A stretch of 64,000 nucleotides of DNA from Reichenbachiella carrageenanivorans (GTDB lineage: Bacteria; Bacteroidota; Bacteroidia; Cytophagales; Cyclobacteriaceae): assembly GCF_025639805.1 (NCBI RefSeq), contig NZ_CP106735.1, positions 310,001 through 374,000 of the forward strand, in the 5' to 3' direction. The notes beneath the pieces are model-generated. The model had not been told where the DNA came from, made no database searches, and saw only the letters and a list, made by a program, of their open reading frames with translations. Positions 29,458-63,958 of the stretch are shown piece after piece. The position numbers were made by a program, and so were the translations under genes. Position 1 is the first letter of the stretch. Each line of letters starts with the position of its first letter.

Positions 29458-31104
29458 TTATTGATTTAAAATTTTAGAATAAGCTTTGGAATCCGCCAAT
29501 AGTTGAGCAGCCTGTATGACTGTTGGGTCATGATCCAAGCTGGCCTCCATCATTCCCGTATGAAAATAATATCGGCTAATAATCTCTTCCTCAAGCATGA
29601 ATTTGATATCATCTTTGAAGGTTTCAAGGTAGTTTTCTTTAAGTGTACCTACCTTTATTTTCAATTTTTCTATGGCTGGTTTCATTCCATCATAGTACTT
29701 TTCCTTTTTGGCCATTTTCTCCAAGGCAACTATGGCATCATCCATCTGCGAGGACAGATTGAATTCTTTTCCATCGACCCAAGTCACAAAATCCGAATAT
29801 TCCTCATCCGACAAATTGAAGGCTCTTGGTGCTGAGATCTCAGGGTGTACAAAGGCATACTCAGTGGCATAGTCAAAAATTAAATTTTGACTCACCATAT
29901 TATAAAGGAGATTAGAAAATTTCCGTGGTTCTACTGACAAATCAGGTTCTATTCCTCCCCCATCATATACCGTCCTGCCTTTACTCGTCTTAAAAGCCAC
30001 TTTAAGAGAGTCTGGTATTTCTCCTACACTACCATCTTCGTTACGATGAGAATAATCAATAGCCTGAATACATCTACCACTTGGGATATAATATTTAGCT
30101 GTGGTTATTTTCAACTGAGAGTTGTACGGTAATGGCCGTGTAGCCTGTACCAGTCCCTTTCCAAAGGTACGTGTACCGACAAGTATACCTCGATCGTAGT
30201 CCTGCACCACTCCTGACACGATCTCCGCAGCCGAAGCTGTAGATCTACTGGTTAGTACTGCTAATGGGATGTCATTATCTGCGGTAGGGTATGGTGTTGA
30301 ATAAGTTTTATTCCATGACGCCATTTTCCCTTTGGTGCTCACGACTTCCTTGCCTTGCTCCACAAACACATTAGCCACTTTGACTGCTTCGTCTAACAAA
30401 CCTCCAGGATTGTCTCGTAGGTCCAGAATTATTTTGGTTGCTCCTGCGCTTTTTAAGCTATCTAGTGCATTTTTCACTTCACTACCTGCATCTGTGGTGA
30501 AATCACTCAGTTTAATAAAACCAGTAGTCTCATCATACATGCCATAATACATCACATTGTCAATGGTGATTTTAGAGCGAGTCAAGGAGACATCAAACGG
30601 TTTTTCGATTCCATAGCGCTTGATCGTTAATTCGATATCAGATCCTGGCTGTCCTTTGAGCAGTTCGCTGATCTCTATGGACGATTTCCCTTCAAGATTC
30701 TGATTATCTATTTTTAAGATTTCATCTCCAATCTTCAAACCAGCTGAATGTGCTGGATAGCCCACGTAGGGCATGATCACAGTGTTGGCATTACGTCTCT
30801 TTCCTACAATAGCGCCAATGCCTCCATATTCACCAGTGGTAGCGGTACGGTAATCCTCAATATCAGCTTCAGAAATATAAGCTGCATAGGGATCGAGCGA
30901 CTTGAGCATAGCATCTATTCCATCTCCGATGAGTTCTTCACTAGACAATTCATCCACATAATGTGTATTGAGCTCTCTATAAAGAGTCGCGAAAATGTTG
31001 ATATTTTTCGATATCTCGAAACTATGATCGCCACTAAGCCAAGTGAATGAAAACAAGCCTACCAACAACACTATTCCAACTACCCCAATTACTACTCTCT
31101 TCAT
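29458..31104 (-). CDS. ctpA: C-terminal processing (S41) serine protease with PDZ domain
   Basis: 548 residues. An N-terminal hydrophobic segment (VVIGVVGIVLLVGLFSFTW) exports or anchors it. A PDZ domain (about 90-180) contains GGIGAIVG and GDEILKIDNQNLEGKSS. The S41 core has the catalytic Ser in SRSTASAAEIVSGVVQD (about 290) and the Lys in GTRTFGKGLVQ. It trims C-termini of periplasmic or outer-membrane proteins. It follows rnpA by 27 bases in the rpmH operon. Confidence 0.94.
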   Translation of the reverse strand: MKRVVIGVVGIVLLVGLFSFTWLSGDHSFEISKNINIFATLYRELNTHYVDELSSEELIGDGIDAMLKSLDPYAAYISEADIEDYRTATTGEYGGIGAIVGKRRNANTVIMPYVGYPAHSAGLKIGDEILKIDNQNLEGKSSIEISELLKGQPGSDIELTIKRYGIEKPFDVSLTRSKITIDNVMYYGMYDETTGFIKLSDFTTDAGSEVKNALDSLKSAGATKIILDLRDNPGGLLDEAVKVANVFVEQGKEVVSTKGKMASWNKTYSTPYPTADNDIPLAVLTSRSTASAAEIVSGVVQDYDRGILVGTRTFGKGLVQATRPLPYNSQLKITTAKYYIPSGRCIQAIDYSHRNEDGSVGEIPDSLKVAFKTSKGRTVYDGGGIEPDLSVEPRKFSNLLYNMVSQNLIFDYATEYAFVHPEISAPRAFNLSDEEYSDFVTWVDGKEFNLSSQMDDAIVALEKMAKKEKYYDGMKPAIEKLKIKVGTLKENYLETFKDDIKFMLEEEIISRYYFHTGMMEASLDHDPTVIQAAQLLADSKAYSKILNQ

Positions 31105-31131
31105 ATCAAATGAATTTTATCAAACCTGTGT

Positions 31132-31536
31132 TTACTTGTCCAATTTGGCTTTTAAACGACTGATTGAATCGACAAGTTTAGATGCCACAAAACTATATGG
31201 ATGGATTTCCTTCGCAGTGTAAATATAGGCAATCACCAGAAATTTACCTTCGGGCAAGACATCACTCAACAGGTATTTGTGCAGCCGATAGGACTCTCGC
31301 ATTAATCGCTTGATACGATTGCGATCTACAGCTCTTTTAAAGTTTCTCTTGGACACGCTAATCATCAATTGGTGACAGCTCGCCTGCTCGTCCGCTAGAA
31401 GAAACCGTACGGAGAAGGGATAAAAATAAAAAGATGCTCCTTTGGCAAAAAGAGCATCAATTATTTTTTTACTACTCAATCTTTCCGATTTCGGAAAGGA
31501 GCAATTTCTATATGTTTGATTTTTTCCTTCCATCAA
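31132..31536 (-). CDS. rnpA: Ribonuclease P protein component
   Basis: 134 residues, small and basic. The RNA-binding signature is FKRAVDRNRIKRLMRESYRLHK, preceded by FPKSERLSSKKIIDALFAKG. It is the protein subunit that assists the RNase P RNA in 5' tRNA maturation. The usual rpmH-rnpA order is kept, 25 bases apart. Confidence 0.95.
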   Translation of the reverse strand: MMEGKNQTYRNCSFPKSERLSSKKIIDALFAKGASFYFYPFSVRFLLADEQASCHQLMISVSKRNFKRAVDRNRIKRLMRESYRLHKYLLSDVLPEGKFLVIAYIYTAKEIHPYSFVASKLVDSISRLKAKLDK

Positions 31537-44799: not shown

Positions 44800-45987
44800 G
44801 TGGGAGTCACTTTTCAGCCCGTATTTAACCGTAAAAAGACAAAGAACAAATCAGGACTTTATTCGATTCATGTCAGAGTAACTATTGATAGGAAAACAGA
44901 ATACATTAACCCTGACCTTCCGAAAATTTCATCTCAGTACTGGTCCGGCCGTCAAAACAAATGGGTCAAGGAATCGCATCCCAATTCATATGAGATAAAT
45001 AGTCTTCTTCAACGCAAATTAGGAGAACTCGACGACTACATTCTTCAAACAAAGCTAAAAAGGCGTAGCATTTCGTTTGACACAATTAAAAGTCATTTTT
45101 TTAGACAGGGCGACAGCACTCTCTTTAATGACTTTATTAAAGAATACCTTAAAAACATGAAAGGATTATCTTTAAACACTATCAAGGTCTATCAAACATT
45201 CGAAAAACATCTGAACAATTATAACTCAAGAATAAAATTTTCAGAACTAAATGAAGAAGTCCTCTTCGGGTTCAAAAATTACCTTCAACATGAATTGAAT
45301 CATAATGGAGGTACCACAAAAAAATATTTCGATAAGTTTAAGGTGATATGTAAAGAAGCTGTCCGTAGAGGGTATGTTGATGTAAACCATAATCCTTTCT
45401 TCTTTACGGACTTAAAATTTAAGATAGAAAAGCCAAAAAGAACCTACTTAGAAGTGGACGAGATCAAAGCATTGATTGATTTAAAATTCACATCTCCAAA
45501 ACTTGAAATGCACAGAGATCATTTTTTATTCATGATATTTTCAGGGCTCTATTACAAAGACTTAAAAAATTTGAAAAAGTCAGATCTTAGAAGAAAAAGC
45601 AAAAAAGCCTATATTTCTGGAAACAGAATTAAAAATGACAACTCCTTCCTTATTCCAATATACAAATTCAAGATGGCCTTAGAGTTAATCGAAAAATACG
45701 AAGATCCGAGTAGCCACTTGGTCTTTCCTAATACAATTAGCGATCAGAAATTCAATGAGCACTTAAAAGACTTTGCCTCCCAGGCAGAAATAAAAAAGGT
45801 TATTACGAATAAAGTCGCAAGGCATACAAATGTACAGTTATGGATTGGTGCAGGTGTTGAGCGACAATTTGTTTCCAAAATGGTTGGACACTCGGAAGAA
45901 GCGACCACACAACATTACTATGATATGTCAATACATAACATTGATTCAAAAATTTCTAATATTGACTTCAAAAGCGCTGGACTATGA
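44800..45987 (+). CDS. Tyrosine recombinase/integrase with altered active site
   Basis: 395 residues of the Bacteroidota arm-binding/SAM-like/catalytic three-part layout. The GTG start at 44800 follows an in-frame TAA four codons earlier and gives the usual short lead to the arm domain (VTFQPVFNRKK). In the catalytic domain, Tyr373 (TTQHYYDM), His364 (KMVGHS) and Arg341 (VARHT) are kept, but the first Arg of the GLRxxDL box is Tyr251 (SGLYYKDL) and the His of HxxR is Lys338. It is the expected integrase of this element, but perhaps inactive or dependent on a partner. The stop overlaps the next ATG (ATGA). Confidence 0.88.
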   Translation: MGVTFQPVFNRKKTKNKSGLYSIHVRVTIDRKTEYINPDLPKISSQYWSGRQNKWVKESHPNSYEINSLLQRKLGELDDYILQTKLKRRSISFDTIKSHFFRQGDSTLFNDFIKEYLKNMKGLSLNTIKVYQTFEKHLNNYNSRIKFSELNEEVLFGFKNYLQHELNHNGGTTKKYFDKFKVICKEAVRRGYVDVNHNPFFFTDLKFKIEKPKRTYLEVDEIKALIDLKFTSPKLEMHRDHFLFMIFSGLYYKDLKNLKKSDLRRKSKKAYISGNRIKNDNSFLIPIYKFKMALELIEKYEDPSSHLVFPNTISDQKFNEHLKDFASQAEIKKVITNKVARHTNVQLWIGAGVERQFVSKMVGHSEEATTQHYYDMSIHNIDSKISNIDFKSAGL

Positions 45988-56901: not shown

Positions 56902-57789
56902 TTATTTAATTACTCTTTGGACATTATTAAGACTTGGAATAAAATATTGGGTACGGCCACCTATCCATGGAAATTGCATAGCAGCGCGTCCTTTGTAAAT
57001 AGTACTCCCTGCGGGTATATTCCAATGTGCCACTTTTGACATTCCATTCCAACCCGGACGTAAGGCCAAACCCATTCTATCCACAAGCTTTAAACCAGTA
57101 ATAGAAGACGGGTTGGTCATATACCTTCCTTTAGCAAAAGCATTCACATTATCATAATATCGACTAAGAGTGATAGATTCATCTAGAACTACCTTTTGGT
57201 ACTTTCCTGCACTAAAAGTACGCGCAATATCATCAGAAAGCCCTACCCCTTTAACAGCTCTAATTGCTTTAAATGCTCTAAACCCATAAACCAGCCCAGC
57301 ACCAGCTAACTCTCCTCCAATTGCAAAGGCTGTTTCCTTCATCACAGCAGCTCTTGCTTCCATGCCAAAATTTTGAACAGCACTTATGGCATTAAACGAA
57401 GGCTCAAAGCTCATATTTGCTACATCAAATTTATGATTGGCCCATCCTGCACCTCCCACATTCGCAACAGAAATAGCTCCTGCTTGGTCACCATAAGCCC
57501 TTGCATTCATTTCACTTGGACTTATACCTTCACGACCATCAGGGTCAACAGTCATTAAAGGGTTATTCCCCATTGCCGCATAAGGACTAAAGTATTGACG
57601 AGCGGGGTCTGGATTTAAGAACCTAGCAATTGTTGCATCATACTCCCTAGCCTCAAAATGATTAAACCCCGTCTCTTCATCCTCTTCCGCAAACTGCCCC
57701 TGATAACCAAACCTGTAATCCTTCTCTTGAGGATTTCTCCACTGGCTCGCGACCGAGCCAAAGGGATAGTAGTCTATCCATTTTTTTAA
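56902..57789 (-). pseudogene. Orphan RHS C-terminal fragment with a putative toxin tip
   Basis: Open frame of 296 codons from just after an in-frame TGA (57790-57792) to the stop at 56902, without its own ATG until about 57573. The first part is the RHS core end: WIDYYPFGSVASQW, YRFGYQGQFAEED-ETGFNHFEAREYDATIARFLNPDP, and MGNNPLMTVDPDGRE. After DPDGRE the sequence becomes variable (about 190 residues) and ends KVAHWNIPAGSTIYKGRAAM...TQYFIPSL, a toxin-like tip. It is a silent cassette unless joined to a full RHS gene by recombination. Confidence 0.8.
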
Positions 57790-57919
57790 TCACGGTCGCA
57801 CTTTTTTCCTAACACTTTCAAGTATTAGAAAAAATTTTGCCTAGCTCATGGCACTCAATACTTCAACATTTTTTTTATAGGCCATCTGCCTTGGTTGTGA
57901 AGTTAATAATTTTCACAGA

Positions 57920-58102
57920 TCACCCGTCACGGCTTTTTGATTTTAGGGCATTAATAATTCCTGTAAAGGGAATGTTCGGAAGAACTTTCTGGAAAAACTT
58001 TCCAATAAGATCAACTCTATCTTTTGGGATAATGGTTAGGATAAGTGTCATTAAGGTCATCCAGGCCAAGACACAAACAACTATAAGAGCTATATATTCC
58101 AT
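57920..58102 (-). CDS. Small membrane protein, 60 residues
   Basis: MEYIALIVVCVLAWMTLMTLILTIIPKDR then a basic tail. One strong membrane helix with a positive-inside tail. It lies upstream of the orphan RHS tip on the same strand. Too short to place in a family; it could be an immunity-type or accessory protein, or a chance hydrophobic frame. Confidence 0.45.
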   Translation of the reverse strand: MEYIALIVVCVLAWMTLMTLILTIIPKDRVDLIGKFFQKVLPNIPFTGIINALKSKSRDG

Positions 58103-58740
58103 AATTTCTTTGTTTTATCGTAAAGGGTCTGTGACACCCAAAAGAGCCTCAGCTTTCTTTAGTTTTTAAAAATAATTTGAGCCTTATCCATATCAGAGGA
58201 CAAAAAAAATCATCAATTCAACTCATAGGATTTCACAGGTGCTAAAGGACTGATTTTTATTCGATGACGAAAGGACAACCAACATTCTCGACTAAAAAAC
58301 AATCCCTAACACGCCTAAAAGCACATAATGTGCATTAAACAAATCATTCAGTTTTTCATTTACATTTTTTCATTTTCAACAAAATCTTGTCTTTTCAATG
58401 AATACCGTCTTATGACAGAGTAATATCATTTCCATAAAATCATTCTCTGTAACAATAACATTGAAGGTATTACAGAGGTTAATACTACTGAGGGAATTGG
58501 GTACAATAAGGAGAGATAAAGCGTGATAAGATGCGATAAGGACTAATAATGTCCGTTTTTTTGAACAGTAAAAGACATTGACTGAACTTGACTATTTGCA
58601 GTATCTCGATTGGCTTTTGCTTTTCAAAAAAATGATCCAACCGAACAACTAAAGGCTTTTTTATGCAGAGTGTTGATTGAGGGCGGAAGGTTGAGATTTC
58701 GTTTGTTTTGATATAGATAGTTCCAGAAAAGTCAAAATAC
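58103..58740. other. AT-rich non-coding stretch
   Basis: About 640 bases with no supported gene. Frames present (for example an 87-codon minus frame) lack protein-like composition. It ends where base composition changes sharply to GC-rich near 58740. Confidence 0.45.
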
Positions 58741-59130
58741 AAACACAATTTTACGGTTACCAGACTTTTCTGCGAGCCGCCTGCGAGCGGAACCAGCAGC
58801 CAGCCAGAAAAAGGCCGTTAGGCCGACTGGCTGTGAGTGCCGCCTTTTTCGGCGGGACGGTCTGGTGGTGACACGCAGGCTCGCATAAAATGGGTAGCGG
58901 GTGGATGCGTTGCTACTGAACGCAATGGAGCTTTGCGTAATGGAGAGAAGCTGCAAAAGCAGACACAAGAGCTACCGTGAAGACTGACCGAGGAGTGCAA
59001 GAACTGTGACAGACTCGAAGCGAAGCGGAGACCCGAAGGGCTGATAGTGGGCTGATCCCGATTTTTATCGGGAGAAGCTTGCTATCAGGTCTGGCGCTGT
59101 TCTTTGCCGACGACAGAAGGATGAACACCT
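58740..59130. ncRNA. GC-rich, hairpin-dense structured region (candidate ncRNA or att array)
   Basis: Hairpins seen: CAGCCAG/CTGGCTG around 58800-58835 with GGCC-GTTA-GGCC inside; CCGCC/GGCGG over a T loop near 58850; TGCGTT/AACGCA near 58907-58925; CTGC-AAAA-GCAG near 58952; and TCCCGAT-TTTT-ATCGGGA enclosed by CTGATAG/CTATCAG at about 59042-59088. ACCAGAC (about 58758)/GTCTGGT (about 58860) and GCGAGCC/GGCTCGC interleave, so a pseudoknot is possible. Coding potential is poor in both strands. Confidence 0.5.
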
Positions 59131-59279
59131 TATTTCCTAAGAATGTTTCGGACTTCTATTACCGTTTCTCCAGCGACTAAAAGGAGACTGGCAGCAAATG
59201 TTTCGGCCTTAGATTATCTATTTGTCATACAAACCCCCTCTGGCTACTCACATTTTTCACTATTCACTTTCCGCCAAAA

Positions 59280-59545
59280 CTTCAAAAAAAATCAAAAGAC
59301 TCGGGTCGCACCGGGACGCTCTGTCACGAGAGGAGTGCTCCCTTCGGGTTAGGGGTCGGCTCACAGCGATGAGTGCGGTGAATACTGCGGAGTATCGTGG
59401 AACATTGATGGTTTTGGGGAACGCCAGTTGACGACAGTCGGAGCGAAGCGGATAGTGGTGGGTGCTTGCGGTGGGAACGGTAGAGGGGTATATCGGTGGT
59501 ACGGTGGTTGGTAGTGGGTTGGTGTTTTGTGGTAGTATATGTTTT
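59280..59545. other. Second structured, G-rich non-coding block next to the recombinase genes
   Basis: It begins with stem-rich sequence (GGAG-TG-CTCC, CCC-TTC-GGG, ATACT-GCGG-AGTAT near 59330-59395). From about 59440 to 59535 the plus strand is almost only G and T, with repeated GGTGG and GGGG runs, then a T run. It has no protein-like frame. It could be a recombination or attachment site, or a structured RNA. Confidence 0.45.
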
Positions 59546-59547
59546 TT

Positions 59548-60465
59548 TTAGTTGAGTGGATGGAACTTGTTAATATCTTCTTTCAGGTCTTCTAAGTCAC
59601 TTTGTTTGTACTTTTCTGTGCTGCTTACGAACCTGTGGCCTGCCATGTATTGGGCTTGTCTTAGATTGTAATTATTCAACCATTTCACAATTACACTGGC
59701 TCTGATTTGTTGTAGATCTTCTATCCTTCCATTCTGATCTTTCAACGTCTTGGTTAGTTTTCGGATGGCGTGGTACAGGCTCGGACTCTTGCCCGAACTG
59801 ATAAATAACTGCTCTGATTGTTTCTGTGTGATGGCTAATATTTCCGCTCTGGTTTTGAGTAAATATTCTTGCATTTCAAGTATCTGAACAGCTTCTAATT
59901 TCAACTCTCTTTCGTTGCTTCTTCTGTTCCTGGGGACATAAATCATTCCTTCTCTCAGCTTAATATCCTCTGGTTTTAGATCAATTAATTCTGTGGAGTT
60001 GATCCCCTGATAAATCAATAGTCCCAACATTACTTTATGCATCTGGAAGCTGGGCTGTCTTAGTTGCTTGGTGGTTGCGTTATCTCTTGGATTGAACTGA
60101 GGTTCGTTGGTGATAAACTTGTGGTAAACAGCTTCTAGCTCGATGGGCTTTAAGATGTCGTAAACCATTCTTCTTTTGATGCCCTTGATTTGGATTTTCT
60201 GCGCTGGATGGTGACTGATTATTTCTGCTTGCAATAAGTGATTGTAATAATGTTTGATGCTTCCCATGTACAAGCTCACTGTTCGTTTACTTGTCCCTCT
60301 TTTATTCAACTGCTGCGTGTAAGCCAATAAATCCTGATAAGTGATCTGCTCTATTTCCAATCCTTCTTCTACTGCCCATTGATGCAAGTTTTCTACATTC
60401 CTGACGTGTCCTTTGATGGTTGTACGACTGTAACCATTCGATTGTAAATACTCTTTAAACTTCAT
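59548..60465 (-). CDS. Tyrosine recombinase-like protein with degenerate active site
   Basis: 305 residues with the SAM-like N-domain (residues 1-90) and the catalytic fold. Against the consensus: the first Arg of GLRxxEL is Asn156 (YQGINSTELIDL); the HxxR His is Gln252 while Arg255 is kept; His277 (MAGHRF) and Tyr286 (STEKYKQ) are kept. It is unlikely to cleave alone. It overlaps the active recombinase upstream by 11 bases, so the two are co-translated and may act as a heteromer. Confidence 0.85.
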   Translation of the reverse strand: MKFKEYLQSNGYSRTTIKGHVRNVENLHQWAVEEGLEIEQITYQDLLAYTQQLNKRGTSKRTVSLYMGSIKHYYNHLLQAEIISHHPAQKIQIKGIKRRMVYDILKPIELEAVYHKFITNEPQFNPRDNATTKQLRQPSFQMHKVMLGLLIYQGINSTELIDLKPEDIKLREGMIYVPRNRRSNERELKLEAVQILEMQEYLLKTRAEILAITQKQSEQLFISSGKSPSLYHAIRKLTKTLKDQNGRIEDLQQIRASVIVKWLNNYNLRQAQYMAGHRFVSSTEKYKQSDLEDLKEDINKFHPLN

Positions 60466-61519
60466 CCTCGTGCAGTTGTATGGTTTCGTAAGCTGGGATA
60501 TTGTCGTAGCGTTGTTCCTTCTCTATTTCCATTTCAGCAATGTGGGTATATATCTGGGTTGACTCTAAACTGCTATGCCCTAAAAACTTGCTAATATTTT
60601 CCAGACTCATGCCTGCTTGCAGTAGATGTGTGGCGATGCTATGACGCAGTGTGTGGAGTACTATTTCCTTTTCTATCAGCTCTGGTTGATTGGTGTTGAC
60701 TTGCAATAGTTTGAGTCTCAGTAACAGGCTTTGCCCTCCCATCCTTCTGCGTTTGTAGCTGATAAAAAACGCTCCTTCTCTTTTGTCACTGATCAAGCTT
60801 GAGCGATGATCATAGATGTATTCTTGCAAGTGTTTCTGATTGGCTTGATTAAATGGAACGTATCTTTCTTTGTATCCCTTCCCTCTCTTGACATGCAGTA
60901 ACTGCCTGTCAAAATTAATGTCTCCAATGTCCAGATGATAGCCTTCATTTCTCCTGAGCCCACAACCATAAAAGATCGTCAACATGGCTCTGTCCCTGCT
61001 TTGGATGGCTTCCATTTTTTCATCACTGAGTCGTTTGCTGTGATACAAAGTGGTATCATAAGTCACCTGATATAATTGTCTGATTTCATCTACACTCAAC
61101 ACTGGAATAGATTTCAACTGCTCTTCTTCCCATCTAATGCCAACAATCGGGATATCTAGTCTTCCTACTTGTCTGAGATAGTCTGTAAACTTATTCAGAG
61201 CTTGCAAGTGCTTGTTTAGATAACTACTGCTTAATGCACCTGATCTTCTCTGGTTGCTTCTTTCTTTGAGCTGGTCATAATATTGTTTGATATGTTTATG
61301 AGCTAGTTGGTTAATGGTGGTTATTCTTTGTTTTTCCAGATAATACAAAAACTCTCGTACATGGTGGGGTAAGTTGTAAACAGTGCTCGAAGCATAACCA
61401 AGGATGTCCAACCACTCGCCGAAGCTCTTTTCTAGGTATCTAAAAGAGGTATTATCTAGGTTTAGTTTTTTCACTTGGGTATCTGTTTTTGGATTTTGTG
61501 AGCCAATGAGATAACTCAT
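60455..61519 (-). CDS. Tyrosine recombinase with complete active site
   Basis: 354 residues. Core-binding domain 20-125; catalytic residues all present: Arg189 (YGCGLRRNEG), Lys214 region (KRGKGYKERYVP), His289 and Arg292 (VLHTLRHSIATHLL), His315 (KFLGHSSLE), Tyr324 (STQIYTH). It has the XerC/XerD-like layout without an arm domain. It is presumably the active enzyme of the module. It is paired with an overlapping pseudo-recombinase and preceded by an ATPase gene; the 60-base gap between them holds a switch-like hairpin. Confidence 0.93.
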   Translation of the reverse strand: MSYLIGSQNPKTDTQVKKLNLDNTSFRYLEKSFGEWLDILGYASSTVYNLPHHVREFLYYLEKQRITTINQLAHKHIKQYYDQLKERSNQRRSGALSSSYLNKHLQALNKFTDYLRQVGRLDIPIVGIRWEEEQLKSIPVLSVDEIRQLYQVTYDTTLYHSKRLSDEKMEAIQSRDRAMLTIFYGCGLRRNEGYHLDIGDINFDRQLLHVKRGKGYKERYVPFNQANQKHLQEYIYDHRSSLISDKREGAFFISYKRRRMGGQSLLLRLKLLQVNTNQPELIEKEIVLHTLRHSIATHLLQAGMSLENISKFLGHSSLESTQIYTHIAEMEIEKEQRYDNIPAYETIQLHEDEV

Positions 61520-61535
61520 TGATATTCAATATTGG

Positions 61536-61588
61536 TTGCAGCTCAAAAGGCTACTGAGCCGCTAGTGAGCTGCAAGCTGCTAGGCGGC
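61536..61588 (-). promoter_or_regulatory. Alternative-hairpin element between the ATPase and recombinase genes
   Basis: TTGCAGCTCA (61536-61545) and TGAGCTGCAA (61566-61575) pair perfectly and enclose GGCT/AGCC (61549-61560). The same region offers AGCCGCTAG (61557-61565) paired with CTAGGCGGCT (61580-61589). The two folds share bases and cannot coexist, as in attenuators. The second also covers the ATPase stop codon. Confidence 0.55.
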
Positions 61589-63118
61589 TTTCTTTTTTTG
61601 TAGTTTCTCTACTATCTGGTCTAGTACTGCACCTATCCTTGATTTCAACTGCTCGTATTCTTCATAGCTCACTATTTCGTAATGATAGCCCTTGTTTTTC
61701 AGGCCTGTGGATTTCAGATATCCTGACTCCTTGAGTTGAAGATTATATCGCTTGATTGTACTTAGTGGGGTTCTAAACGCCAGACTAATTTGACTATTGG
61801 TAAAAGTCTTCTGACCCTTCTTTTCTTTCAGCCACGTTTTTAGTGTCTCAAAATAACTACGACATGCTCCCGTTAGATCATCTGATTTCCTCAACAAAAT
61901 TTCCTTCATTAGTATATTGGCTTCATGGATATCTTCTAATGTTGTCTCGATATATTCCTCTCCTGTTTCTTTGTCGTATTGCTTCTCACGCTGCATCTGA
62001 TAATAAAAAGTCACTGCTTCTATGAAGGCCAAGTAATGCGCATTTGTTCTTCTGGGTTTAAATACTTCTGTTGGTATCTTGAGCTTTTGCGCATAGGGAT
62101 TTCGGATAGTGACAGGCTGCAATACTCTTTGCATGTCTTGGAACTGTTCTATCATTTGCTGCTCTGCCATACGATCTACTTTGCCTGCTGCTACAGCCCT
62201 TTGATGATCCATGATCTTTTCGTCTTGTTCTCTGCTTTCATCGATGTAGATCAAAAAAGATCGATTGGCATTGTCTTCGTAAAGGCTTTCTTTGGTGGTA
62301 CACCCTGACACGCAAACAGGACCTTCTACCGTCAGTGTAACAGTTTTGGTTTCGCCTTTCGTATTTTTGATTACTACCGTCTTTGTGATTTTCTTCTTGG
62401 ATTTGATTTCTCTTAAAGGGTAAAGCACTTCTTCTGCTCCGTCTAAGTCTTCTATCAATATGAGTTTATTTCTGAGCTGGTGCTGACCAAAGTAATAAAA
62501 GGCGTTTCCTGATAGTGTGGTGATTTCCAGTTTGTCTTCGTCGGGTACTAATGCCCCTACTCTTTCTTGTAAGTGTGTTTTTCCTACGCCACTACTACCT
62601 AGGCTGATGATATGCAGCGGATTACTCATTTTCCTTGACAGGAAGATTAAGAACATTAATAAGCGGTTGTTTTCTTCTCCAATAATTCCACACTTGCCTA
62701 AGTCTTCGTTTGTCCTTTTCATCAAGTTTGGGCTGGACAGATAGAGCTTGTATTTCTTGATTTCTTCTGGACTGAGCATTTTTCTTTGCTCTGGCTGTTC
62801 TCGTTCTTTTTCCCTGATTTCTAGCCTGTAAGTTTCTAGTAGATTGGTCAGCTCATGCAAAGCTCCTGCTATGACACTTGTGCCTATTTCTAGTTTCTCT
62901 GCAATCAATCGGACAAACTTCTCTACCTGGGTGCTGTTGTACAGATCGAGGTTGTGCCTGACGGGTGGGATCACTGTTTCTGCTACTGCTGTTTTTAGTG
63001 TCACTCGCATTCTATCCAGATAATCTGTCCTGATCCCGCCTAGTACATGGATGTCTAGCACAGTGTATTGGAAGGTGATGTTTTCTGGATTGGTGGTGTC
63101 TAGGTTTAGATTATCCAT
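61580..63118 (-). CDS. P-loop ATPase of the recombinase module (primase-helicase-associated type)
   Basis: 512 residues. The Walker A motif is GSSGVGKTHLQERVG (about 175-190), Walker B LILIEDLDGAEE, and a sensor-like SGCTTKESLYEDNANRSFLIYIDES. The C-terminal 100 residues form a winged-helix-like DNA-binding region (FTNSQISLAFRTPLSTIKRY). Similar ATPase cores, as I recall, occur fused to CHC2-Toprim primase modules in Bacteroidota elements; here neither CHC2 nor Toprim is visible. It probably remodels or unwinds DNA for the recombinases. First gene of the three-gene minus run. Confidence 0.75.
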   Translation of the reverse strand: MDNLNLDTTNPENITFQYTVLDIHVLGGIRTDYLDRMRVTLKTAVAETVIPPVRHNLDLYNSTQVEKFVRLIAEKLEIGTSVIAGALHELTNLLETYRLEIREKEREQPEQRKMLSPEEIKKYKLYLSSPNLMKRTNEDLGKCGIIGEENNRLLMFLIFLSRKMSNPLHIISLGSSGVGKTHLQERVGALVPDEDKLEITTLSGNAFYYFGQHQLRNKLILIEDLDGAEEVLYPLREIKSKKKITKTVVIKNTKGETKTVTLTVEGPVCVSGCTTKESLYEDNANRSFLIYIDESREQDEKIMDHQRAVAAGKVDRMAEQQMIEQFQDMQRVLQPVTIRNPYAQKLKIPTEVFKPRRTNAHYLAFIEAVTFYYQMQREKQYDKETGEEYIETTLEDIHEANILMKEILLRKSDDLTGACRSYFETLKTWLKEKKGQKTFTNSQISLAFRTPLSTIKRYNLQLKESGYLKSTGLKNKGYHYEIVSYEEYEQLKSRIGAVLDQIVEKLQKKKAA

Positions 63119-63167
63119 TTTTAAAAACTTTTGGAGTTTACTGTCTATAAAACAAACTTACATTAAT

Positions 63168-63240
63168 GGATATATTTATCCTATACATTTCGACTCATTT
63201 TGATACTTAAATCATAAAACACTAATTTTATGGACATAAA
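63168..63240. promoter_or_regulatory. Operator-like half-sites between the ATPase gene and the XRE repressor
   Basis: GGATA-TATT-TATCC (63168-63181), CATAAAA-CACTAA-TTTTATG (63213-63232) and TTTAT-GGAC-ATAAA (63227-63240) stand in the divergent gap. The repeated CATAAA half-site just upstream of the XRE ATG (63250) suggests autoregulation and control of the ATPase promoter. Confidence 0.5.
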
Positions 63241-63249
63241 GATCAAAAT

Positions 63250-63612
63250 ATGGATATTGGAGAGCGTATAAAAAAGATAAGAGAAGCCAGAGGGCTTTCA
63301 CAAAAGGAAGTGTCTGCTACGCTAAATATGGATCAATCGCAGTATTCTAAGATTGAAAAGGGCAAAACTGATCCTACAACTACCACGCTCGATAAAATCA
63401 CTAAAGCTATGGGCGTGTCTCTTGCCGAACTATTCATTTCTAATGATCCGCTCGAAGAAGTAAATTCTATTGATAAGTCCACTATGGAAAAACTTCAACT
63501 ACTCGAAGAACTGGAAGAGGACGAAAAACAATCCGTTTTTAAAATTATCGATGGACTCGTCTCTAAAAAGAAGCTGAAGGACACACTAAGCAGTGCCCTC
63601 AAAACGGCATAA
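63250..63612 (+). CDS. XRE-family transcriptional repressor
   Basis: 120 residues. The N-terminal Cro/C1-type HTH (IGERIKKIREARGLSQKEVSATLNMDQSQYSKIEKGKTDPTTTTL, in order) occupies about residues 2-60; an acidic helical tail follows, perhaps for dimerisation. It is divergent from the ATPase/recombinase run with palindromes between, so it most likely represses that run. A terminator follows. Confidence 0.92.
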   Translation: MDIGERIKKIREARGLSQKEVSATLNMDQSQYSKIEKGKTDPTTTTLDKITKAMGVSLAELFISNDPLEEVNSIDKSTMEKLQLLEELEEDEKQSVFKIIDGLVSKKKLKDTLSSALKTA

Positions 63613-63640: not shown

Positions 63641-63958
63641 TTAAGCGGCTTTCACTTTACAGCTCCACCCTGGGTAATCATCACTTTTATGACGATTATT
63701 TTCCCATTGCAGGGGTTGGAGATTACTAAGCGCATCTGAGCCTCCTTTTGATACTGGTACTACATGATCAATCTCCCAACCAAATTTCGAGTTGGTGTTC
63801 CCATACTCGGAACGTTGCATCAATGCACCACAAGTATCTTTTCTAACATAAGAAGGGTCGTAACCTGTTACAACTCTTCCTTTTTCCCATACAGCCTGTA
63901 CTGTAGCTGCATCAAAGTTTGCACCACCTCTAGAAGTGCTTCTTACTCTGTAAGACAT
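63641..63958 (-). CDS. HNH endonuclease-like protein
   Basis: 105 residues ending at a stop next to the XRE terminator. The HNH core reads WEIDHVVPVSKGGSDALSNLQPLQWENNRHK in sequence order (His in IDHV, Asn in NLQPL, final His of the NNRHK group). A Cys in KDTCGALM may serve structurally. No partner gene is identifiable because the window ends 42 bases beyond the start. It could be a free nuclease or toxin-like protein; as a mobile-element neighbour it may be part of the same accessory region. Confidence 0.8.
   Translation of the reverse strand: MSYRVRSTSRGGANFDAATVQAVWEKGRVVTGYDPSYVRKDTCGALMQRSEYGNTNSKFGWEIDHVVPVSKGGSDALSNLQPLQWENNRHKSDDYPGWSCKVKAA

Follow-up and report, generated by a model that had tools for sequence, protein, structure and literature searches.

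The window considered in this work is a 64,000-base stretch of DNA, bases 310001-374000 of the one-contig, 4.8-Mb genome of Reichenbachiella carrageenanivorans (contig NZ_CP106735.1); the next 11 kb of the genome were also examined. Near its right end lies a trio of genes, here called the engine, that encodes a P-loop ATPase and two tyrosine recombinases (YR1 and YR2) and that very probably belongs to an integrative element inserting into RHS toxin genes. The features of the locus are as follows, in window coordinates and in the order in which the engine is read.

63641-63958, minus strand: small HNH protein, encoded in the element's cargo part
63250-63612, plus strand: XRE/Cro-type regulator, divergent from the ATPase gene
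61580-63118, minus strand: P-loop ATPase of 512 amino acids (aa), predicted to be MCM-like AAA+ with a C-terminal winged helix
60455-61519, minus strand: YR1, tyrosine recombinase of 354 aa with the full R-K-H-R-H-Y set
59548-60465, minus strand: YR2, degenerate tyrosine recombinase fold of 305 aa that keeps the Tyr
57811-59547, minus strand: non-coding block after YR2, a GC-rich hairpin part (about 58760-59547) and then an AT-rich part
57775-57810, minus strand: element end with two A-tracts, located by a matrix made from the element ends of other genomes
57758-57774, minus strand: core of the right attachment site (attR), GACTACTATCCC^TTTGG, codons D-Y-Y-P^F-G, with the likely crossover at 57763/57762
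56902-57762, minus strand: displaced RHS core and orphan tip, with no in-frame start at the junction and an in-frame stop a few codons upstream

An earlier note on this DNA had described an ATPase, a complete recombinase, an overlapping degenerate recombinase and an XRE regulator. All of these are confirmed as genes, with the trio on the minus strand and the 11-base overlap of YR1 and YR2 at 60455-60465. The note had confined the module to 58740-63612 and had placed the regulator so that it diverges from the structured DNA. The module is indeed present there, but the element extends past both sides of this span and the flanking RHS cores had gone unnoticed; the XRE gene diverges from the ATPase end, not from the structured block. 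The gene preceding the trio, which lies beyond the window, encodes a giant RHS protein of 2,148 aa with an EndoU tip, and an RHS orphan tip begins beyond the non-coding block at window position 57,762. The trio thus sits between two RHS cores. In the host genome, the TIGR03696 profile finds four RHS cores over its cut-off and a fifth below it, and three of the four are located at its two engine-bearing loci.

The left attachment site (attL) is where the upstream RHS body meets the tip, and attR is where the element end meets the displaced tip. At this locus attL and attR match from GACTACTATCC onward, and not before it, with one silent difference (CCT/CCC). The core pattern RAYTAYTAYCCNTTYGG has a single match in the window and none in 100 shuffles. 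The element would span genome positions 367763-375919 (8,157 bp), that is, from window position 57763 to about 1.9 kb past the window end.

The element end was identified with a 36-base matrix, from which RHS codons are excluded and which is built from 18 element ends of other genomes. Its rows are 18 of the 20 attR sites (out of 33) that have a YYPFG-like motif; L057 and L118 are omitted since their left side is RHS. When both strands of the window are scored, 57810-57775 ranks first of 127,930 positions with 23.7 bits, versus 15.2 for the next one, and this top match directly abuts GACTACTATCC. The window attL scores -26 with the same matrix; 31 of 38 attL sites score below zero, and the seven positive ones have an element end on their left.

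Related loci were collected from named genomes by a scan based on an alignment of the ATPase; an earlier scan with the single ATPase sequence had given no relative. The alignment scan gave 416 matching places, the best 80 of which were kept and correspond to 73 distinct loci, all labelled Bacteroidota except L046 and L047, which bear the label of a Rickettsiales metagenome bin. Among the 73 loci, a same-strand RHS core lies within 5 kb upstream of the engine in 33 of the 35 with enough flank, and one lies within 6 kb downstream in 27 of the 31 with enough flank. The RHS core matches listed are all on the strand of the engine but one (in L055). The ATPase is followed by YR1 and then by YR2 in 60 of the 60 named loci that have at least 2.5 kb after the ATPase, an order that is therefore not due to chance. 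In addition, 20 stretches were picked by hand from the class-wide matches, and L123 and L124 were scanned too (by its length, L127 is the contig of L056, and L130 that of L079). Recombinase matches follow the ATPase in all 20, and in 17 at least one flank holds an RHS core. Of the remaining three, L130 ends 1.6 kb past the ATPase, an RHS-like frame lies 6.8 kb downstream in L143, and L133 has a giant gene in which no core is recognised. The suggestion in the earlier note that the trio is a recurrent mobile module of a complete and a degenerate recombinase is thus borne out: the same-order trio is found in other genomes, and the boundaries of its unit can be given.

These boundaries are best seen where the unit is repeated. 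Two or more engines are present in 20 entries, and in 11 of them the copies follow each other in tandem and are nearly identical (6.3-8.2 kb, 98.8-100%). The repeated unit consists of a tip, cargo and immunity-like genes, XRE, ATPase, YR1, YR2, the non-coding block and the element end. In nine of the 11 tandems the first copy starts in an RHS gene, in L088 in a cytochrome P450 gene, and in L108 after the end of another element. The left neighbour of the second copy is the element's own end, and both copies are identical from there onward to the right. The codon boundary TAYCCN^TTTGG fits 8 of the 11 duplications. Identity starts exactly at TTT/GGC in L062, L082, L088, L100 and L106, where the codon to the left of the junction is not the same; in L047 and L055 it is the left parts that agree, and the tips diverge from the same junction codon. 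Taken together, these base-level junctions place the exchange point of this subfamily at the P | F/G codon boundary in YYPFG, where the reading frame is kept.

The same boundary is used in a gene that is not RHS. In L088 (L088/L150), from Arenibacter catalasegens, a cytochrome P450 frame (3.2e-69) adjoins the element on its left. Positions 20-405 of the P450 profile match 30305-31405 of the contig and positions 395-436 match 44882-45010; two engines lie between these matches. The two 6,756-bp units are identical (0 mismatches), and the P450 is split at codons YYYP^FG. The attL of L088 is P450 sequence ...TATTATCCG^TTTGGG followed by the RHS tip, the inner junction is the element end ...TATTATCCA^TTTGGG followed by the element's tip, and attR is the element end ...TATTATCCA^TTTGGG followed by the rest of the P450 (FGAGPRMC...). 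Joined together, the two P450 parts form one frame of 443 aa. This P450 is present in 9 of 21 genomes searched, that of L088 included, and is a single open frame of 443-461 aa in the other eight. The empty site, YYPFGAGPR, is uninterrupted in seven of these eight relatives, the loop of L158 not being found by pattern, and the engine is found in none of the eight with the query that detects it in A. catalasegens. Since the P450 is split by the units and whole in relatives, the whole unit, RHS tip included, entered a non-RHS gene. This stray insertion inactivates the P450 gene, and no other observation shows as clearly that the tip is part of the element and that a site, rather than RHS homology, is recognised.

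These observations bear on the idea that a mobile element of a generic kind enters RHS loci and comes to lie beside tips by chance, the tip being that of the host gene. A second class of elements, found among L139-L145, agrees with this idea to some extent: upstream of the same ATPase-YR1-YR2 engine it carries methylases or other cargo, its right neighbour is an RHS core, and it meets an RHS tip at the right end alone. (The elements of this class are L139-L142, L144 and L145.) However, the tandem units include the tip, and the P450-inserted copies bring an RHS tip along, which contradicts the idea for L088. We regard it as extremely improbable.

The state of the reading frames on the two sides differs. 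Upstream of attL, an open frame of at least 200 aa is present at 26 of 58 sites (one of them the P450), 15 sites are cut by contig ends, and 17 frames are short and closed. None of the 33 attR sites has such a frame upstream, and an in-frame ATG before the core match is absent in 19 of the 33 tips and present in 14. Some element ends, at the attR of L051, L055 and L136, encode a short leader that begins with MGC(R/F/L)K and continues in frame with the displaced tip; the orphan tips of these three loci could thus be translated.

Published accounts of tip exchange, as far as their accessible text goes, invoke general recombination. In Rhs C-terminal displacement (Jackson et al. 2009, PMC2935791), the core acquires a new tip, the former tip ends up downstream as an orphan, and a circular intermediate is postulated. 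The displaced core and tip downstream of the Rhs gene are found here as well; unlike in that account, there are recombinase genes, element ends and a base-precise junction. If this model, proposed for Enterobacteriaceae, applied, RecA-dependent homologous recombination between RHS cores would swap the tips and the trio would be a passenger, which is in line with the decoupling of engine and tip between relatives (see below). Against it, what lies left of attR is not RHS but a conserved element end, independent loci have their junctions at one and the same codon boundary, and the P450 shares only the short core at the insertion site with RHS and the element. Exchange by core-core homology is therefore rejected as the explanation of these junctions, and the model as a whole is very unlikely here.

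We are instead highly confident that the trio is the engine of an 8.2-kb integrative element with both ends in the conserved core of RHS toxin genes, whose recombinases are predicted to cut and join at TAYCCN^TTTGG (YYP^FG) in that core, fusing the element's own tip in frame and displacing the old tip downstream. In the mechanism that we propose, a circle joining the element end to its own tip would serve as attP, and the YYPFG codons of the RHS core in the resident gene would serve as attB. YR1 would catalyse strand exchange, with YR2 as a mostly non-catalytic partner; the two A-tracts and the AACTATTATCC arm are candidate binding sequences for them. After insertion, attL would consist of RHS and the new tip, and attR of the element end and the old tip, mostly without a start codon. 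The product would have the order RHS body and new tip, cargo, XRE, engine, block, element end and old tip. The XRE regulator may repress the operon, and the primase/MCM-like ATPase and the block may replicate or open the circle.

The Phage_integrase profile (PF00589) matches YR1 with 4.5e-34 and YR2 with 1.5e-10. The R-K-H-R-H-Y set of YR1 is complete in 77 of 79 family members, the other two being cut sequences, and YR1 is likely to be the catalytic integrase. In YR2 of the window, Asn156 stands for the first Arg and Gln252 for the His, as the earlier note had it, and Arg255, His277 and Tyr286 are retained. This pattern is family-wide: the first Arg is present in only 13 of 75 members and the first His in 8 of them, whereas 72 have the later Arg and His (three have gaps), and the Tyr position holds Tyr in 67 and Phe in five.

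The ATPase is predicted to have an MCM-type AAA+ fold and to be an MCM-like helicase, and some of its relatives are fused to an N-terminal CHC2/Toprim primase. It is present in 16 of the 98 genomes searched as relatives, the host genome counted, and in 35 of 395 genomes of the class, five of them by weak or partial matches only. Among scored protein candidates, 5,797 of 7,998 are ATPase relatives. No relative was found in the viral contigs searched, which therefore lend no support to a phage origin. Plasmid contexts were examined in three of 28 records; on one of these plasmids, NZ_CP133672.1 of Aureispira (L119), there are tandem units of RHS, hypothetical protein, XRE, toprim and recombinase.

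The GC-rich part of the non-coding block is structured, as noted earlier for about 0.8 kb of hairpin-dense DNA beside the recombinases; only the adjacency of the XRE gene to it does not hold. When folded as DNA, 58760-59560 is more stable than all of 20 shuffles (z = -3.8). The block is weakly conserved, and at the Rfam gathering threshold only two tRNAs are found, so it matches no curated Rfam family. A 9-mer count over 70 blocks finds chiefly AT-rich words and one inverted-repeat motif that is absent from the window. This pair, TATTTTACATAATTTACATTATAAC and its complement, is conserved in flavobacterial blocks (L088, L096, L105, L106, L108 and others), and its right copy precedes attR by a few hundred bases; at least one core word occurs in 33 of 69 blocks, the window being without it. 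We propose that the block is the origin or regulatory region of the element. Inside the block of the window there is a 60-codon frame, possibly for a membrane peptide, at 57920-58102 on the minus strand.

The order of recombinase, structured non-coding DNA and displaced tip recalls an integron, and arrays of units exist, as would suit a stationary trio that captures tip cassettes via the structured block. However, each of the repeated units contains the engine, the window block has only patchy matches, in six other loci, and YR1 scores 106 bits where the cut-off for the integron integrase (TIGR02249) is 265, so that it is not an IntI-type integrase. As for attC hairpins, the block folds well, and comparison of the blocks established no hairpin that they have in common. 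The loose integron likeness suggested by the earlier note fails on the integrase, and a reading as an integron-like platform has next to no probability.

Different cargo is found beside a conserved engine, which the earlier note had named as a check. In G017, an identical stretch of 5,972 bp, from near the ATPase start to the orphan core start, is present on two replicons with different tips; the main-contig copy has lost XRE and the ATPase N-terminus. In L070, two engines are 99.3% alike and no DNA similarity is reported between their tip regions, and L086/L087 and L090/L101 likewise have like engines and different tips. For 16 locus pairs with engines at least 85% identical, the tips have no protein match in 13 and are shared in three, namely L046/L047, L062/L073 and L074/L076, the first two pairs each being from one assembly. 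Engine and tip are thus linked within each unit but exchanged over time. Terminal repeats, which a circle might give, occur in 2 of 35 whole contigs: the 141-bp repeat of L093 starts exactly at the exchange point and is preceded by the element end, and in L058 (59 bp) YR2 is split over both ends.

A number of observations weigh against the reading as an RHS-directed integrative element, or restrict it. First, RHS cores are not found throughout: no upstream core lies within the limit in L052 and L079, and no downstream core in L056, L074, L076 and L110. In addition, related CHC2/Toprim-ATPase and recombinase modules on a Leptospira and a Salmonella plasmid have no annotated RHS nearby. Second, of the 17 short, closed attL sites, six follow another element's end according to the matrix, and the rest are not all explained. 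Third, the site is not uniform: other subfamilies join elsewhere, at GYGFNGKE downstream in the core (L042), and the host's second locus joins at GGGGGGAGTGA, a G-rich site past the core. Likewise, among 30 further loci the matrix places its top match on the junction in no more than four (L037, which shares a contig with a training row, L040, L124 and L136), perhaps also in L134; many of the rest belong to other subfamilies, which have other ends. A stricter, hand-written two-A-tract pattern has no match in the window. Fourth, an empty site is found for the P450 only and not for RHS, and the window's RHS body has no full relative in seven congeners. Finally, the decoupling of engines from tips means that a further path of exchange must be at work as well, and the terminal repeats of L093 and L058 fit a circle but a tandem array equally.

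The earlier note knew of no described system with exactly this make-up; in the literature searched, as far as its text is accessible, neither such a system nor its sites are described, and accounts elsewhere are possible. Several reports come close. Integrase-like genes near Rhs in bee-gut bacteria have been suggested to have a role in capture, with a call for further work (PMC5727410, 2017); they belong to another phylum, and the accessible text describes no attachment sites, element limits or helicase. Genes of the XerC/D type beside polyimmunity loci have been suggested to have a role in accumulation (PMC3482391, 2012); there, too, the recombinase lies by polymorphic-toxin genes, but the genes concerned are immunity genes, and tip exchange is ascribed to recombination with no enzyme named in the accessible part. 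For Vibrio, a search for an integrase is reported to have given no evidence of one (PMC5361080, 2017). The rAID of Bacteroidales (PMC12247911) also ties a tyrosine recombinase to interbacterial toxin warfare in Bacteroidota; rAIDs hold arrays of orphan immunity genes, whereas here a toxin tip is in one unit with two recombinases and an MCM-like ATPase. The window recombinases are followed by the non-coding block and an RHS tip, not by a co-oriented array of short orphan immunity genes, and rAID membership is rejected.

Comparison with well-known mobile elements gives a similar picture. A complete recombinase, discrete ends with a shared att core and, in the P450 case, an empty site are all found, as in tyrosine-recombinase integrative elements. 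Integrative elements for which the 3' part of a gene serves as attB insert in coding sequence and supply the same gene end; here, in contrast, the end is replaced by a different toxin domain. Tn554-like transposons, to which the earlier note had loosely likened the module, have two catalytically complete tyrosine recombinases, TnpA and TnpB, together with TnpC; this likeness fails, since YR2 is degenerate, keeping the first Arg so rarely, and the third gene encodes an AAA+ ATPase. RIT elements have three tyrosine recombinases in a row and are rejected, with two in all 60 loci counted; in L074 and L076, a third, weaker recombinase-like frame is seen after YR2. The modules on a Leptospira and a Salmonella plasmid, with the order XRE, CHC2/Toprim-ATPase and tyrosine recombinase, share a homologous primase-ATPase, a divergent XRE gene and an adjoining recombinase, but have a single recombinase, and an RHS gene is absent from their annotated stretches.

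More generally, we consider it likely that these elements constitute a class of mobile element that is self-integrating and probably self-replicating, that uses a polymorphic-toxin core as its attachment site, and that combines tip, immunity gene, integrase and primase-helicase, each insertion re-arming the weapon and leaving the old tip behind. If so, they would supply the missing integrase behind the rows of orphan RHS tips in Bacteroidota, the larger cargo elements of the second class would also use RHS cores, and stray insertions at look-alike codons, as in the P450, would betray the mechanism. Here the coding sequence of a toxin gene would act as attachment site, the recombinase has a degenerate partner that is retained throughout the family, and a bacterial mobile element carries what is predicted to be an MCM-like helicase. 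Since the predicted attP, attB, attL and attR are given to the base, some of them in cultivable marine Bacteroidota, the question becomes one of a simple recombination assay.

Two minor observations concern individual loci. Small two-gene pairs resembling toxin-antitoxin modules follow YR2 in L037 (11366-11943), L040 (11238-11788) and L145 (12210-12976). A further RHS fragment of the host genome, at about 771.8-772.3 kb (G000:C1, L122), shares its RHS body end with the gene of this locus but has codons YYPGG in place of YYPFG; the search of the host's own genome finds no engine there.

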